From NCBI RefSeq assembly GCF_900109915.1, contig NZ_FOBU01000001.1, positions 1 through 64,000 of the forward strand: a stretch of 64,000 nucleotides of DNA. Direction: 5' to 3'. A program made the translations under genes and the position numbers. A model generated the notes under the pieces. That model was not told the DNA's origin, searched no databases, and was given only the letters and a program-made list of their open reading frames with translations. Each line of letters opens with the position of its first letter. Positions within the stretch are counted from its first letter, which is position 1. This DNA is from Luteibacter sp. UNCMF331Sha3.1. Its GTDB lineage: Bacteria; Pseudomonadota; Gammaproteobacteria; Xanthomonadales; Rhodanobacteraceae. Positions 41,908 through 45,049 of this stretch are shown here, one piece after another.

Positions 41908-43033
41908 TCAGGCGTCGATGCGCTTGGAGCCGGCCTCGAGGCCGGCCTTCAGGCTGGCCTCGACGAATTCGTCGAGATCGCCGTCGAGCACCTTCTGCGT
42001 ATCGGAACGTTCCACACCGGTGCGCAGATCCTTGATGCGCGACTGGTCGAGCACGTAGTTGCGGATCTGGCTGCCCCAGCCGATGTCGGACTTGGAGGCT
42101 TCCAGCGCGTCCTTTTCGGCGTTGCGCTTCTGCACTTCGAGCTCGTACAGCTTCGCTTTCAGCATCTTCATCGCGCGATCGCGGTTGGCGTGCTGGCTGC
42201 GTTCGGTCTGGCAGGCCACAACCGTGTTGGTCGGCACGTGCGTGATACGCACGGCGGACTCGGTCTTGTTGACGTGCTGACCGCCCGCGCCCGACGACCG
42301 GTAGACGTCGGTCTTGAGATCGGCCGGGTTGATGTCGATCTCGATGTTGTCGTCGACTTCCGGCGATACGAACACGGAGGTGAAGCTCGTGTGGCGGCGG
42401 TTGTCGGAGTCGAACGGGCTCTTGCGCACCAGGCGGTGCACGCCGATCTCCGTCTTCAGCCAGCCGTAGGCGTAATCGCCTTCCACGCGGAACGTGGCCG
42501 ACTTGATGCCCGCGACGTCGCCGCCGGACACTTCCATGAGCTCGGCCTTCCAGCCGCGCGATTCGGCCCAGCGCAGGTACATGCGCAGCAGGATTTCGGC
42601 CCAGTCCTGGGCTTCGGTGCCGCCGGCGCCGGCCTGGATGTCGACGAACGCCGGCGCGGCGTCGAGCTCGCCGGAGAACATGCGCTGGAATTCGAGCTTG
42701 CCGACACGGGCGTCGACCTTCTTCAGGTCGTCGACGATCGACTGCACGGTGTCCTCGTCGCCATCGGCGGCGGCCATGTCGAGGAGCTCGCGCGCGTCGT
42801 CGAGCGACGCGGTCATCTCGTCGACGCCGGTCACCACGTTATCGAGGTGGGCGCGCTCGCGGCCCAGCTCCTGCGCGCGCTTCGGGTCGTCCCACACGGT
42901 GGGGCTCTCCAGCTCGCGGTTGACTTCCTCTAGCCGTTCTTTCTTGACGGCGTAGTCAAAGATACCCCCTAAGCGACTCGACGCGGCCCTTGAGGTCCGC
43001 GATCTGCGCAAGGATCGGATTGATCTCGATCAT
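41908..43033 (-). CDS. prfB: Peptide chain release factor 2 (programmed +1 frameshift)
   Basis: RF2 recognises UGA and UAA stop codons. Translation begins at the ATG at 43033 ([20 protein letters not shown], then LRGYL), meets an in-frame TGA as codon 26 and continues after a +1 shift at 42958, giving a 374-residue protein. The GGQ catalytic loop is in [20 protein letters not shown]; the stop-codon-reading tripeptide region includes [19 protein letters not shown] (SPF). A simple open frame from 43011 would miss the true N-terminus. It is followed by a strong terminator. Confidence 0.95.
42956..42970 (-). promoter_or_regulatory. prfB programmed +1 frameshift site
   Basis: On the minus strand AGGGGGTATCTTTGA reproduces the E. 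coli signal exactly: a Shine-Dalgarno-like AGGGGG three bases before CTT, then the in-frame stop TGA and a following C. Low RF2 lets the ribosome slip from CTT to TTT and resume at GAC, so RF2 controls its own synthesis. Confidence 0.95.
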
Positions 43034-43180: not shown

Positions 43181-44851
43181 TCACGCCTCGAGGGCCTCCC
43201 GATGCACGCCCCGGATCGCTCGCCCCGAGGGATCGGCAGCGGCGGCGAAGGAAGGGTCCCACGCCAGCGCGGCCGGCGACGAACACGCGATGGACTTTCC
43301 GCCCGGCACCGTCGCGGCGCAGGCCTCCCCGGGGAAATGCGTCTCGAAGATCGTCCGGTAGAGGAATGCTTCCTTGGTGGCGGGGGTATTGAACGGGAAC
43401 CGGGACGCCGCGGCGGCGAATTCCCGGTCCGAGACCATCGCCTCGGCATGGGCCTTCAGCCCGTCGATCCAGCCATACCCGACGCCATCGCTGAACTGCT
43501 CTTTTTGCCGCCAGAGAATCTCGTCGGGCAGCACGCCTTCGAACGCCTCGCGAAGGATGCCCTTCTCGATACCGCGGCGGGCGACCATCTTCGCCTCGGC
43601 GTCGAAACCCATCGCGACGTCGAGGAAATCCGTGTCGAGGAACGGCACCCGCGCCTCCACGCCCCAGGCCGACATCGATTTGTTGGCGCGCAGGCAATCG
43701 TAGAAATGCAGCGCGTCGAGCTTGCGGATCGTCTCCTCGTGGAACGCCCGGGCCGACGGCGCCTTGTGAAAATAGAGGTAGCCGCCGAACACCTCGTCCG
43801 ACCCCTCCCCGGAAAGCACCATCTTCACGCCCATCGCCTTGATCCGGCGGGCCAGCAGGAACATGGGCGTCGACGCCCGGATCGTGGTGACGTCGTAGGT
43901 CTCGATGTGGCGGATCACCTCCGGCAACGCGTCGAGGCCTTCGTCGAACGTGTAGCGGAAGCCGTGGTGGACGGTACCCAGCGCCTCGGCGGCGATCTCC
44001 GCGGCTTTCAGGTCCGGGGAACCCTCCAGTCCGATCGCGAACGAATGCAGGCGCGGCCACCATGCCTCGTCGCGATCGTCGTCCTCGATCCGCCGCCGCG
44101 CGAATCCGGCGGCGACGGCGGCGACGAGCGAGGAATCGAGGCCTCCCGACAGCAGCACGCCATACGGCACGTCGGTCATCATCTGCCGGTGCACGGCGGC
44201 CTCGAAGGCGGCACGCAACGCCGCCGGCTCGATCGTGCGGCCCTTCGTGGCGTCGTACTCGCGCCACGAAGGCGACCGATAACTCCGCGCCTCGCCGTGT
44301 TCGCTGTCGTAGACGTGGCCGGGCGGAAACGGGGCCACGTCCGCGCAGACCCCGACGAGCGATTTCATTTCCGACGCGACGCACAGGCGCCCTTCCCGGT
44401 CGTGCCCCCAATAGAGCGGACACACGCCCATCGCGTCGCGCGCGATCAGGACACGGCGCCGGCCCGCATCCCACAGCGCGAACGCGAAGATGCCGTTGAG
44501 GCGCGGAAGAAAATCGGCGCCGTGCGCGCGGTAGAGCGCGTTGATCACCTCGCAGTCGGAGGCCGTGGTGAACGCGTAATCGCTTGCCTCGCGCAGCTCG
44601 CGATGGTTGTAAATCTCGCCGTTCACCGCCAGCGCGAGGTCGCCCTCGGGAGAGCGCAACGGCTGTGCGCCGCTCGCGGGATCGACGATCGCCAGTCGCT
44701 CGTGCACGAGGATGGCGCCGTCGTCGACGTACACACCGCTCCAGTCGGGCCCGCGATGGCGCTGTCGCTGCGAAAGCGCCATGGCCTGCGATCGCAGGGC
44801 GACGAGGTCGTCACCCGTGGCGAGGCCGAACATTCCGAAGATCGAACACAT
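43181..44851 (-). CDS. asnB: Asparagine synthase B (glutamine-hydrolysing)
   Basis: A 556-residue enzyme making asparagine from aspartate, glutamine and ATP. After Met removal the N-terminal Cys2 (MCSIFGMFG) is the glutaminase nucleophile; RHRGPDWSG and NGEIYNHRELR belong to the same domain. The synthetase domain has the PP-loop LLSGGLDSSLVAAV (near residue 236) and LSGEGSDEVFGGYLYFHKAP. E. coli AsnB is 554 residues. The gene has no operon partner within reach. Upstream lie a leader peptide rich in Asn codons and a terminator, which suggest control by charged tRNA-Asn through attenuation. Confidence 0.95.
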   Translation of the reverse strand: MCSIFGMFGLATGDDLVALRSQAMALSQRQRHRGPDWSGVYVDDGAILVHERLAIVDPASGAQPLRSPEGDLALAVNGEIYNHRELREASDYAFTTASDCEVINALYRAHGADFLPRLNGIFAFALWDAGRRRVLIARDAMGVCPLYWGHDREGRLCVASEMKSLVGVCADVAPFPPGHVYDSEHGEARSYRSPSWREYDATKGRTIEPAALRAAFEAAVHRQMMTDVPYGVLLSGGLDSSLVAAVAAGFARRRIEDDDRDEAWWPRLHSFAIGLEGSPDLKAAEIAAEALGTVHHGFRYTFDEGLDALPEVIRHIETYDVTTIRASTPMFLLARRIKAMGVKMVLSGEGSDEVFGGYLYFHKAPSARAFHEETIRKLDALHFYDCLRANKSMSAWGVEARVPFLDTDFLDVAMGFDAEAKMVARRGIEKGILREAFEGVLPDEILWRQKEQFSDGVGYGWIDGLKAHAEAMVSDREFAAAASRFPFNTPATKEAFLYRTIFETHFPGEACAATVPGGKSIACSSPAALAWDPSFAAAADPSGRAIRGVHREALEA

Positions 44852-44884
44852 GGTCTAGCTCCCGAGGCAATCAGTACGCGCAAA

Positions 44885-44915
44885 GAAAAAGGCCCGCCTG
44901 TGAGGGCGGGCCTTT
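44885..44915 (-). terminator. Attenuator terminator in the asnB leader
   Basis: On the minus strand AAAGGCCCGCC-ctcaca-GGCGGGCCTTT forms an 11-bp perfect stem and runs into TTTTTCTTT. It lies 34 bases before the asnB ATG and 31 bases after the leader-peptide stop. No complete gene on the minus strand ends here, so its likely job is to stop leader transcripts. Confidence 0.88.
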
Positions 44916-44946
44916 CGTGTATTCGTTGGTTTCGCCTGAAACCGCC
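44905..44946 (-). promoter_or_regulatory. Candidate antiterminator in the asnB leader
   Basis: By hand, GGCGGTTTC (44946-44938, beginning with the last G of the leader stop codon) can pair with GAAAGGCCCGCC (44916-44905): GGCGG with CCGCC and TTTC with GAAA around a 3-base bulge. That pairing uses the 5' arm of the terminator, so the two structures exclude each other. A ribosome at the leader stop would cover the first strand and let the terminator form. No energy calculation was run. Confidence 0.55.
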
Positions 44947-45014
44947 TACACGCCGACCCTCCCGAGGTTCCGGGCATTATTGGTATTGGCGTTACGGGCG
45001 GCGATGCGAATCAT
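44946..45014 (-). CDS. Asparagine-rich leader peptide of asnB
   Basis: A 22-residue frame, ATG at 45014 to TAG at 44946, reading MIRIAARNANTNNARNLGRV then GV. Five of 22 residues are Asn, four of them within six codons (positions 8, 10, 12 and 13, then 16). The frame is bounded upstream by an in-frame TGA with no other start between. GAGG is only one base from the ATG, too close for a normal ribosome site, but the predicted transcription start coincides with the ATG, so translation may be leaderless. Position before a terminator and asnB, plus a run of codons for the enzyme product, is the classic layout of his, trp or thr leaders. No such leader for asparagine is known to me in Proteobacteria. 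Confidence 0.75.
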   Translation of the reverse strand: MIRIAARNANTNNARNLGRVGV

Positions 45015-45049
45015 GCCTCGACTAAACCACGATCATGGCGATGGCGCAA
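45014..45049 (-). promoter_or_regulatory. Predicted promoter of the asnB leader
   Basis: On the minus strand TTGCGC (45049-45044) and TTTAGT (45026-45021) are separated by exactly 17 bases. The start point would fall about 7 bases later, at or next to the A of the leader ATG (45014). The -10 matches the consensus at 4 of 6 positions and the -35 at 3 of 6, so this is a modest match. Confidence 0.45.

Follow-up and report, generated by a model that had tools for sequence, protein, structure and literature searches.

The asnB gene on this stretch of Luteibacter DNA is preceded by a short open reading frame (ORF) rich in asparagine codons, which raises the question of whether its transcription responds to the supply of the amino acid that the enzyme makes. 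The stretch analysed, referred to here as the window, is 64,000 nucleotides (64 kb) long, and asnB occupies positions 43181-44851 on its minus strand. The 556-amino-acid product, a glutamine-hydrolysing asparagine synthase B, scores 838.5 bits against the corresponding NCBIfam model (cut-off 499) and is the only match in its own genome. Downstream of asnB on the same strand, prfB carries AGGGGGTATCTTTGAC with an internal TGA (42955-42970), which we take to be the usual programmed frameshift site and probably the reason why the listed prfB ORF starts late. Upstream, in minus-strand order, are a promoter-like pair of hexamers, an ATG at 45014, a 22-codon ORF extending to 44946 and a terminator, followed by asnB from 44851. 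From the comparisons with related sequences described below, we consider it very likely (probability about 0.9) that this leader is a ribosome-mediated transcription attenuator which senses charged tRNA-Asn and controls asnB. A preliminary description of the locus had proposed an Asn leader-peptide attenuator; its core idea is upheld by the conservation of the Asn codons, but the pairing that it placed behind the leader stop codon is not.

The leader ORF (45014-44946, minus strand) would encode the peptide MIRIAARNANTNNARNLGRVGV, with Asn at codons 8, 10, 12, 13 and 16, and both this frame and the 11-bp terminator with a T-run between it and asnB were confirmed in the sequence as first described. 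The terminator (44886-44915, minus strand) reads AAAGGCCCGCC-CTCACA-GGCGGGCCTTT, with CTCACA as the loop, and is followed by TTCTTT. When a 29-base piece of it was folded alone, z was -5.56 and none of 200 shuffles was equally stable; a generic terminator scan of the minus strand did not list it. To gauge chance occurrence, both strands of the window were cut into 636 overlapping 600-base tiles, and each was searched for an ORF whose last 22 codons include 4 or more Asn and which has a terminator no more than 75 bases away. The asnB leader is the sole place in the 64-kb window that passes (in 3 overlapping tiles), and one further ORF passes when the requirement is relaxed to 3 Asn. At the Asn frequency of asnB itself, the probability of finding at least 5 Asn in 22 codons is 8.8e-6.

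Homologous loci were assembled in two ways, and families are denoted f1, f2 (its sister family) and f3 (a third family), all in the order of the window. A first set comprised 80 asnB loci, of which 78 were assessable after L044 and L050 had been dropped for lying at contig ends. In 77 of these 78, asnB is preceded by a terminator and by an ORF that has 3 or more Asn among its last 22 codons, with just three in L055, L075 and L077; the locus L079 has no leader before asnB. Two contig labels in this material are unexpected. L079 is on a contig labelled Rhodococcus sp. RD6.2, with an AsnB 78% identical to the query, which may reflect transfer, contamination or mislabelling, and L015, on a contig labelled Candidatus Eremiobacteraeota, has a leader resembling those of Dyella, encodes an AsnB with 82% identity to the query and is probably from a misassigned metagenome bin.

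The second sample was a draw of 200 genomes from the order, of which 127, that of the window included, match AsnB at the cut-off used. The upstream region was read in 89 of the 126 other matching genomes, and the remaining 37 all lie outside f1-f3. An Asn-rich ORF with a terminator was present in 28 of 29 f1 genomes (13 repeat first-set loci), and leader and terminator were found in 32 of 33 f2 genomes and in all three f3 genomes; in the f1 leader at L119, three of the last 22 codons are Asn. The f1 and f2 genomes without a leader, G067 and G091, encode AsnB proteins just 65% and 64% identical to the query. Luteimonas cucumeris (L076) was grouped with f2 on its leader and terminator. Elsewhere in the order draw, the leader was found in 0 of 11 genomes read from f10 and in 0 of 3 from f5, f6 and f11 together, and f8 gave one weak candidate among 10 genomes read. 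This isolated sequence (L160, genome G082), MFAIYNTINTTNNRLLRSAGSF with a terminator, lies outside f1-f3. Outside the order, 39 asnB loci were found and 30 read; with a terminator required, 4 of the 30 pass at 3 Asn, 3 at 4 Asn and none at 5 Asn. Those passing at 4 Asn have a G+C content of 36-42% and scattered Asn codons, and with none left at 5 Asn, leaders of this kind are not claimed outside the order.

Across the loci, the leader ORF ranges from 20 to 45 codons and differs in sequence in its N-terminal part; the leaders of the window and of L001-L009 are just 22-23 codons long. The stop codon sits 200-441 bases from asnB in some loci, and in five of these from Rhodanobacteraceae (L019, L022, L024, L042 and L049) the spacer between terminator and asnB is full of short hairpin repeats, CCGGCCATCCATGGCCG in L019, L022 and L024 and the GGCCATGGATGGCCGGTATGCCGGAAA type in L042 and L049. 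The statistics below leave out L119, L121 and L142, which were read by eye, and 22 further f1 loci of the order draw that were read (13 repeat first-set loci). L126 and L127, for which the script took the wrong hairpin, were likewise read by eye and are out of the energy statistics after the duplex comparison over 117 loci.

The codon usage of the leaders indicates what has been conserved. In the last 22 codons of 76 f1 first-set leaders (1672 codons), AAT occurs 238 times, AAC 274 times, and AAA or AAG once, and the two Asn codons have similar frequencies at codons -16, -15, -14 and -11 from the stop; in the same asnB genes, Asn makes up 1.3% of codons. On these counts, selection in the f1 leaders acts on Asn identity, with AAT and AAC interchanging freely and Lys codons almost absent. 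The preliminary description had staked its proposal on conservation of the Asn codons in related genomes, and at the amino-acid level they are conserved. The AAT share of Asn codons is 46% in leaders vs 13% in asnB genes (odds ratio 5.7), an excess that could come either from slow decoding of AAU or from avoidance of structure within the Asn run.

Runs of AAY can arise by slippage, and the element might in principle be an AAY repeat, or a chance ORF over an ordinary terminator. We regard this as extremely improbable: the Asn codons are interspersed with Ala, Thr and Arg codons, AAT and AAC vary independently, the arrangement is conserved over three families, and the window holds no other such place at 4 Asn. 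Direct reading of tRNA-Asn or asparagine, by a T-box or riboswitch, has a precedent in the Asn T-boxes of Firmicutes, but the conserved element here is a run of Asn codons in an open frame, which makes direct reading hardly credible. No T-box or other Rfam RNA was found in the whole 64-kb window at the gathering threshold (0 matches).

An attenuator also needs a segment that competes for the terminator. The preliminary description had given this role to GGCGGTTTC, abutting the leader stop codon. The sequence is present, but its first base is the final G of the stop codon, and GGCGG is the only part of it able to pair with the terminator arm (CCGCC). In the window and in L001-L011, where GGCGG lies at the stop, the best duplex of this kind reaches -7.3 to -12.6 kcal/mol in the twelve loci. 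However, GGCGG occurs within 10 bases of the stop in just 13 of 113 loci, namely the window, L001-L011 (all Luteibacter) and L026 (Pinirhizobacter). The duplex energies go against it as well. A tail made up of the final 42 bases of the ORF plus the stop codon pairs with the 5' arm and loop of the terminator at a mean of -20.9 kcal/mol, and the post-stop segment at -5.4 kcal/mol; the ORF-tail duplex is the stronger in 115 of 117 loci, although the tested tail was longer than the tested post-stop segment, which favours it somewhat. The two exceptions, L126 and L127, are those with the wrongly chosen hairpin. We therefore consider it improbable that the post-stop segment blocks the terminator; by this comparison, the antiterminator conserved among the loci is formed by the end of the leader ORF, not by GGCGGTTTC.

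In the window, the 5' strand of the predicted antiterminator (region 2; 44947-44963, minus strand) is GGG-A-GGGTC-GG-CGTGTA, which runs from the ORF tail into the stop codon, and the 3' strand (region 3; 44904-44921, minus strand) is TACACG-AAA-GGCCC-G-CCC, overlapping the 5' arm of the terminator. They would form the helices GGG/CCC, GGGTC/GGCCC and CGTGTA/TACACG. Most of GGCGGTTTC falls in the loop between them, where GGTTTC can pair with GAAACC in a small hairpin, GGTTTC-AGGC-GAAACC (44928-44943, minus strand), a form seen in the window, L006, L008 and L009 alone of 113 loci.

Pairing between ORF tail and terminator arm was evaluated against mononucleotide shuffles, and the shuffle fraction is at most 0.05 in 70 of 82 f1 and 28 of 31 f2 loci; in the window taken alone the pairing does not go beyond shuffles (fraction 0.135). 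With synonymous recoding of the ORF, the fraction is at most 0.05 in just 18 of 82 f1 loci vs 23 of 31 f2 loci, and recoded f1 tails often pair equally well. When the arms are swapped between the families, pairing weakens from -20.2 to -13.9 and from -23.3 to -15.4 kcal/mol. The inner helix, in which CGTGT or CGCGT of the ORF pairs with ACACG or ACGCG, equals or beats all but 5% of spacer shuffles in 23/31 and 38/43 loci. It was set aside because its swap test is one-sided, given that CGTGT tails pair about equally with the spacers of the CGCGT group (-9.0 vs their own -8.3).

Covariation inside f1 was set aside, as seven arm bases are invariant in an alignment of 44 non-redundant sequences out of 82, and the comparison between f1 and f2 was used for this reason. 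Pairing positions were compared with CCCG of the arm as the anchor (81 f1 and 31 f2 loci; L069 has no anchor), and the anchor lies 9 bases before the stop in 77/81 f1 and 17/31 f2 loci. The position before the anchor is C-G or T-G in 80/81 f1 loci and, in f2, T-A in 14/31 and an A:A mismatch in 10/31. At the second position before it, C-G or T-G is found in 81/81 f1 loci and an unpaired C:A in 25/31 f2 loci, and at the position five bases on G-C in 68/81 f1 loci is matched by T-A in 25/31 f2 loci. Between the families, C-G thus becomes T-A at one position and G-C becomes T-A at another, both compensatory. In the f2 locus L155, with CCTG in the arm and CAGG in the tail, G-C is replaced by a Watson-Crick A-T at a place where the locus's own terminator has T-G.

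These compensatory pairs bear on a further explanation, in which the ORF encodes a small protein with its own terminator, asnB is transcribed from another promoter, and there is no attenuation. Such an arrangement would suit the loci with 200-441 bases between leader stop and asnB, but it leaves the compensatory pairs with the terminator arm unexplained. Moreover, the conserved feature of the ORF is its codons for the product of the downstream enzyme, whereas the N-terminal parts and the length (20-45 codons) vary, and we think the small-protein explanation unlikely. The attenuator reading accommodates what was found: a leader ORF rich in codons for the amino acid that AsnB makes (by coding potential and conservation), a terminator, and a mutually exclusive antiterminator that emerges from the comparison and is not significant in the window alone.

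The promoter-like pair comprises a putative -35 element TTGCGC (45044-45049, minus strand) and a putative -10 element TTTAGT (45021-45026, minus strand), the latter 17 bases past the -35 and 6 bases before the leader ATG. A generic sigma-70 scan found no promoter at the asnB leader, and the promoter claim is based on conservation. TTG[CT] occupies the -35 position in 109/113 loci vs 3% of shuffles, the spacer between -35 and -10 is 17 or 18 bases in 112/113, and 102/113 have a -10 that ends 6 or 7 bases upstream of the start codon. The best-scoring in-frame leader start is ATG in 111/113 loci and GTG in 2; since this start was picked by promoter score, shuffle controls were used. A hexamer score of at least 7 is reached by 73% of leaders vs 6% of shuffles and 4% of regions before asnB, and the score of the window's own promoter by 2.75% of shuffles. 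A Shine-Dalgarno (SD)-like 4-mer precedes 2 of 106 leader starts (those with a promoter score of at least 10) vs 111 of 113 asnB starts, the search windows differing slightly; the leader ATG of the window has a GAGG ending one base upstream, too close for an ordinary SD. This geometry suggests that the leader mRNA is leaderless, with the transcription start predicted at the ATG. A published precedent is Sinorhizobium meliloti trpL, whose attenuator RNA is reported to begin with the ATG of the leader ORF (PMC7298713).

The comparison across loci supports the Asn codons, the terminator, the pairing of region 2 with region 3 and the promoter geometry. From these we infer that the leader is translated from RNA starting at its ATG, that ribosomes stall within it, and that the resulting switch follows a physiological Asn signal. 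In this mechanism, RNA polymerase would start at or beside the leader ATG, and a ribosome would load on the 5'-terminal AUG. If Asn-tRNA is scarce, the ribosome would wait at the Asn codons and leave region 2, the last ~17 bases of the ORF, free to pair with region 3, the stretch upstream of and including the terminator 5' arm; the terminator could then not form, and asnB would be transcribed. If Asn-tRNA is plentiful, the ribosome would reach the stop codon and cover region 2, and the terminator would form. An asparaginyl-tRNA synthetase (AsnRS) was found in the window's own genome and in 43 of 43 f1-f3 genomes checked, so charging of tRNA-Asn can depend on free asparagine.

The geometry of the proposed switch was examined by folding the transcript before the terminator 3' arm is made, with the ribosome masking the RNA as far as 12 bases beyond where the Asn codon starts. 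Antiterminators of 6 or more pairs form at one or more Asn stalls in 82/82 f1, 31/31 f2, 1/1 f3 and 1/1 f8 loci, and at half or more of the Asn codons in 76/82 f1 loci. With the ribosome at the stop, fewer than 4 pairs form in every locus, a result made nearly automatic by the masking of region 2. When the finished leader is folded at equilibrium, the antiterminator appears at one or more stalls in just 48 of 115 loci, and the window gives the terminator at every Asn stall. In the Escherichia coli thrL control, too, each of the 8 tested Thr stalls gives the terminator, and equilibrium folding of the complete leader was discarded as an uninformative test of switching. Because thrL, a well-known attenuator, behaves alike, we do not regard the equilibrium result as disqualifying; the switch would have to be kinetic, and our model assumes kinetic trapping.

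In the unfinished leader with no ribosome, the antiterminator tends to form in the folding (66/82 f1 and 30/31 f2 loci), and superattenuation of the classic type is therefore not clearly predicted. A region 1:2 (protector) hairpin within the ORF may be hinted at in the window (44961-44974, minus strand; CCCGG 44974-44970 with TCGGG 44965-44961), but its shuffle fraction is at most 0.05 in 12/82 f1 and 2/31 f2 loci, with medians of 0.12 and 0.48. Among 68 f1 leaders of 35-45 codons, some hold a G+C-rich hairpin before the Asn run (CCGCGC..GCGCGG in Rhodanobacter, e.g. L022); as a pause site, the upstream hairpin of these long leaders is not significant overall (8/68).

Few amino acids (His, Trp, Thr, Ile, Leu, Val, Phe and Cys) are known to be sensed by attenuators of the ribosome-mediated kind, a set that Asn would extend. 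Among the open-licence papers listed by the literature searches there was no Asn attenuator, in agreement with the preliminary description, which knew of none in Proteobacteria; an earlier prediction elsewhere is possible. The accessible text of a broad attenuator survey (PMC2965389) and that of a paper on Actinobacteria (PMC1262725) make no mention of asn or asparagine, and PMC5009743 is unrelated to the question. A further paper tabulates expression of a Xanthomonas asparagine synthase, AsnB2, and its accessible part does not mention a leader (PMC3771888). We consider it probable, at a lower level than the main reading, that the leaders constitute an Asn-specific attenuator class found in nearly all sampled AsnB-bearing members of three families, combining leaderless 5'-AUG loading with an antiterminator made of the ORF's last codons. 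Such a class would explain the control of asnB in Luteibacter, Dyella, Rhodanobacter, Luteimonas and their relatives. With the proposed leaderless design, the part that initiation at a 5'-terminal AUG plays in attenuation would become open to test, and the compensatory pairs found in nature between the families point to the antiterminator bases to change.

Asparagine genes are also controlled by the Asn T-boxes of Firmicutes and, in the case of E. coli asnA, by AsnC; the former act by direct tRNA binding and the latter is a DNA-binding protein, and neither uses a leader peptide. The his and trp attenuators of E. coli are of the same mechanistic type as that proposed for the asnB leader, but they sense other amino acids, and the protector hairpin has weak indications in the asnB leader. 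E. coli thrL likewise combines an intrinsic terminator with a leader ORF that contains codons for the amino acid made by its operon; its ORF end (GGTGCGGGC) is also complementary to the terminator 5' arm (GCCCGCACC), and its equilibrium folds give the terminator at every tested stall, as in the window. It differs in sensing Thr and Ile, where the asnB leader would sense Asn, and in the ordinary ribosome-binding site that it is taken to have. S. meliloti trpL has its attenuator RNA start at the leader ATG (PMC7298713), as predicted for the asnB leader, but it senses Trp and is alphaproteobacterial. The mechanism type is known, and what would be new is the sensed amino acid together with the proposed leaderless design.
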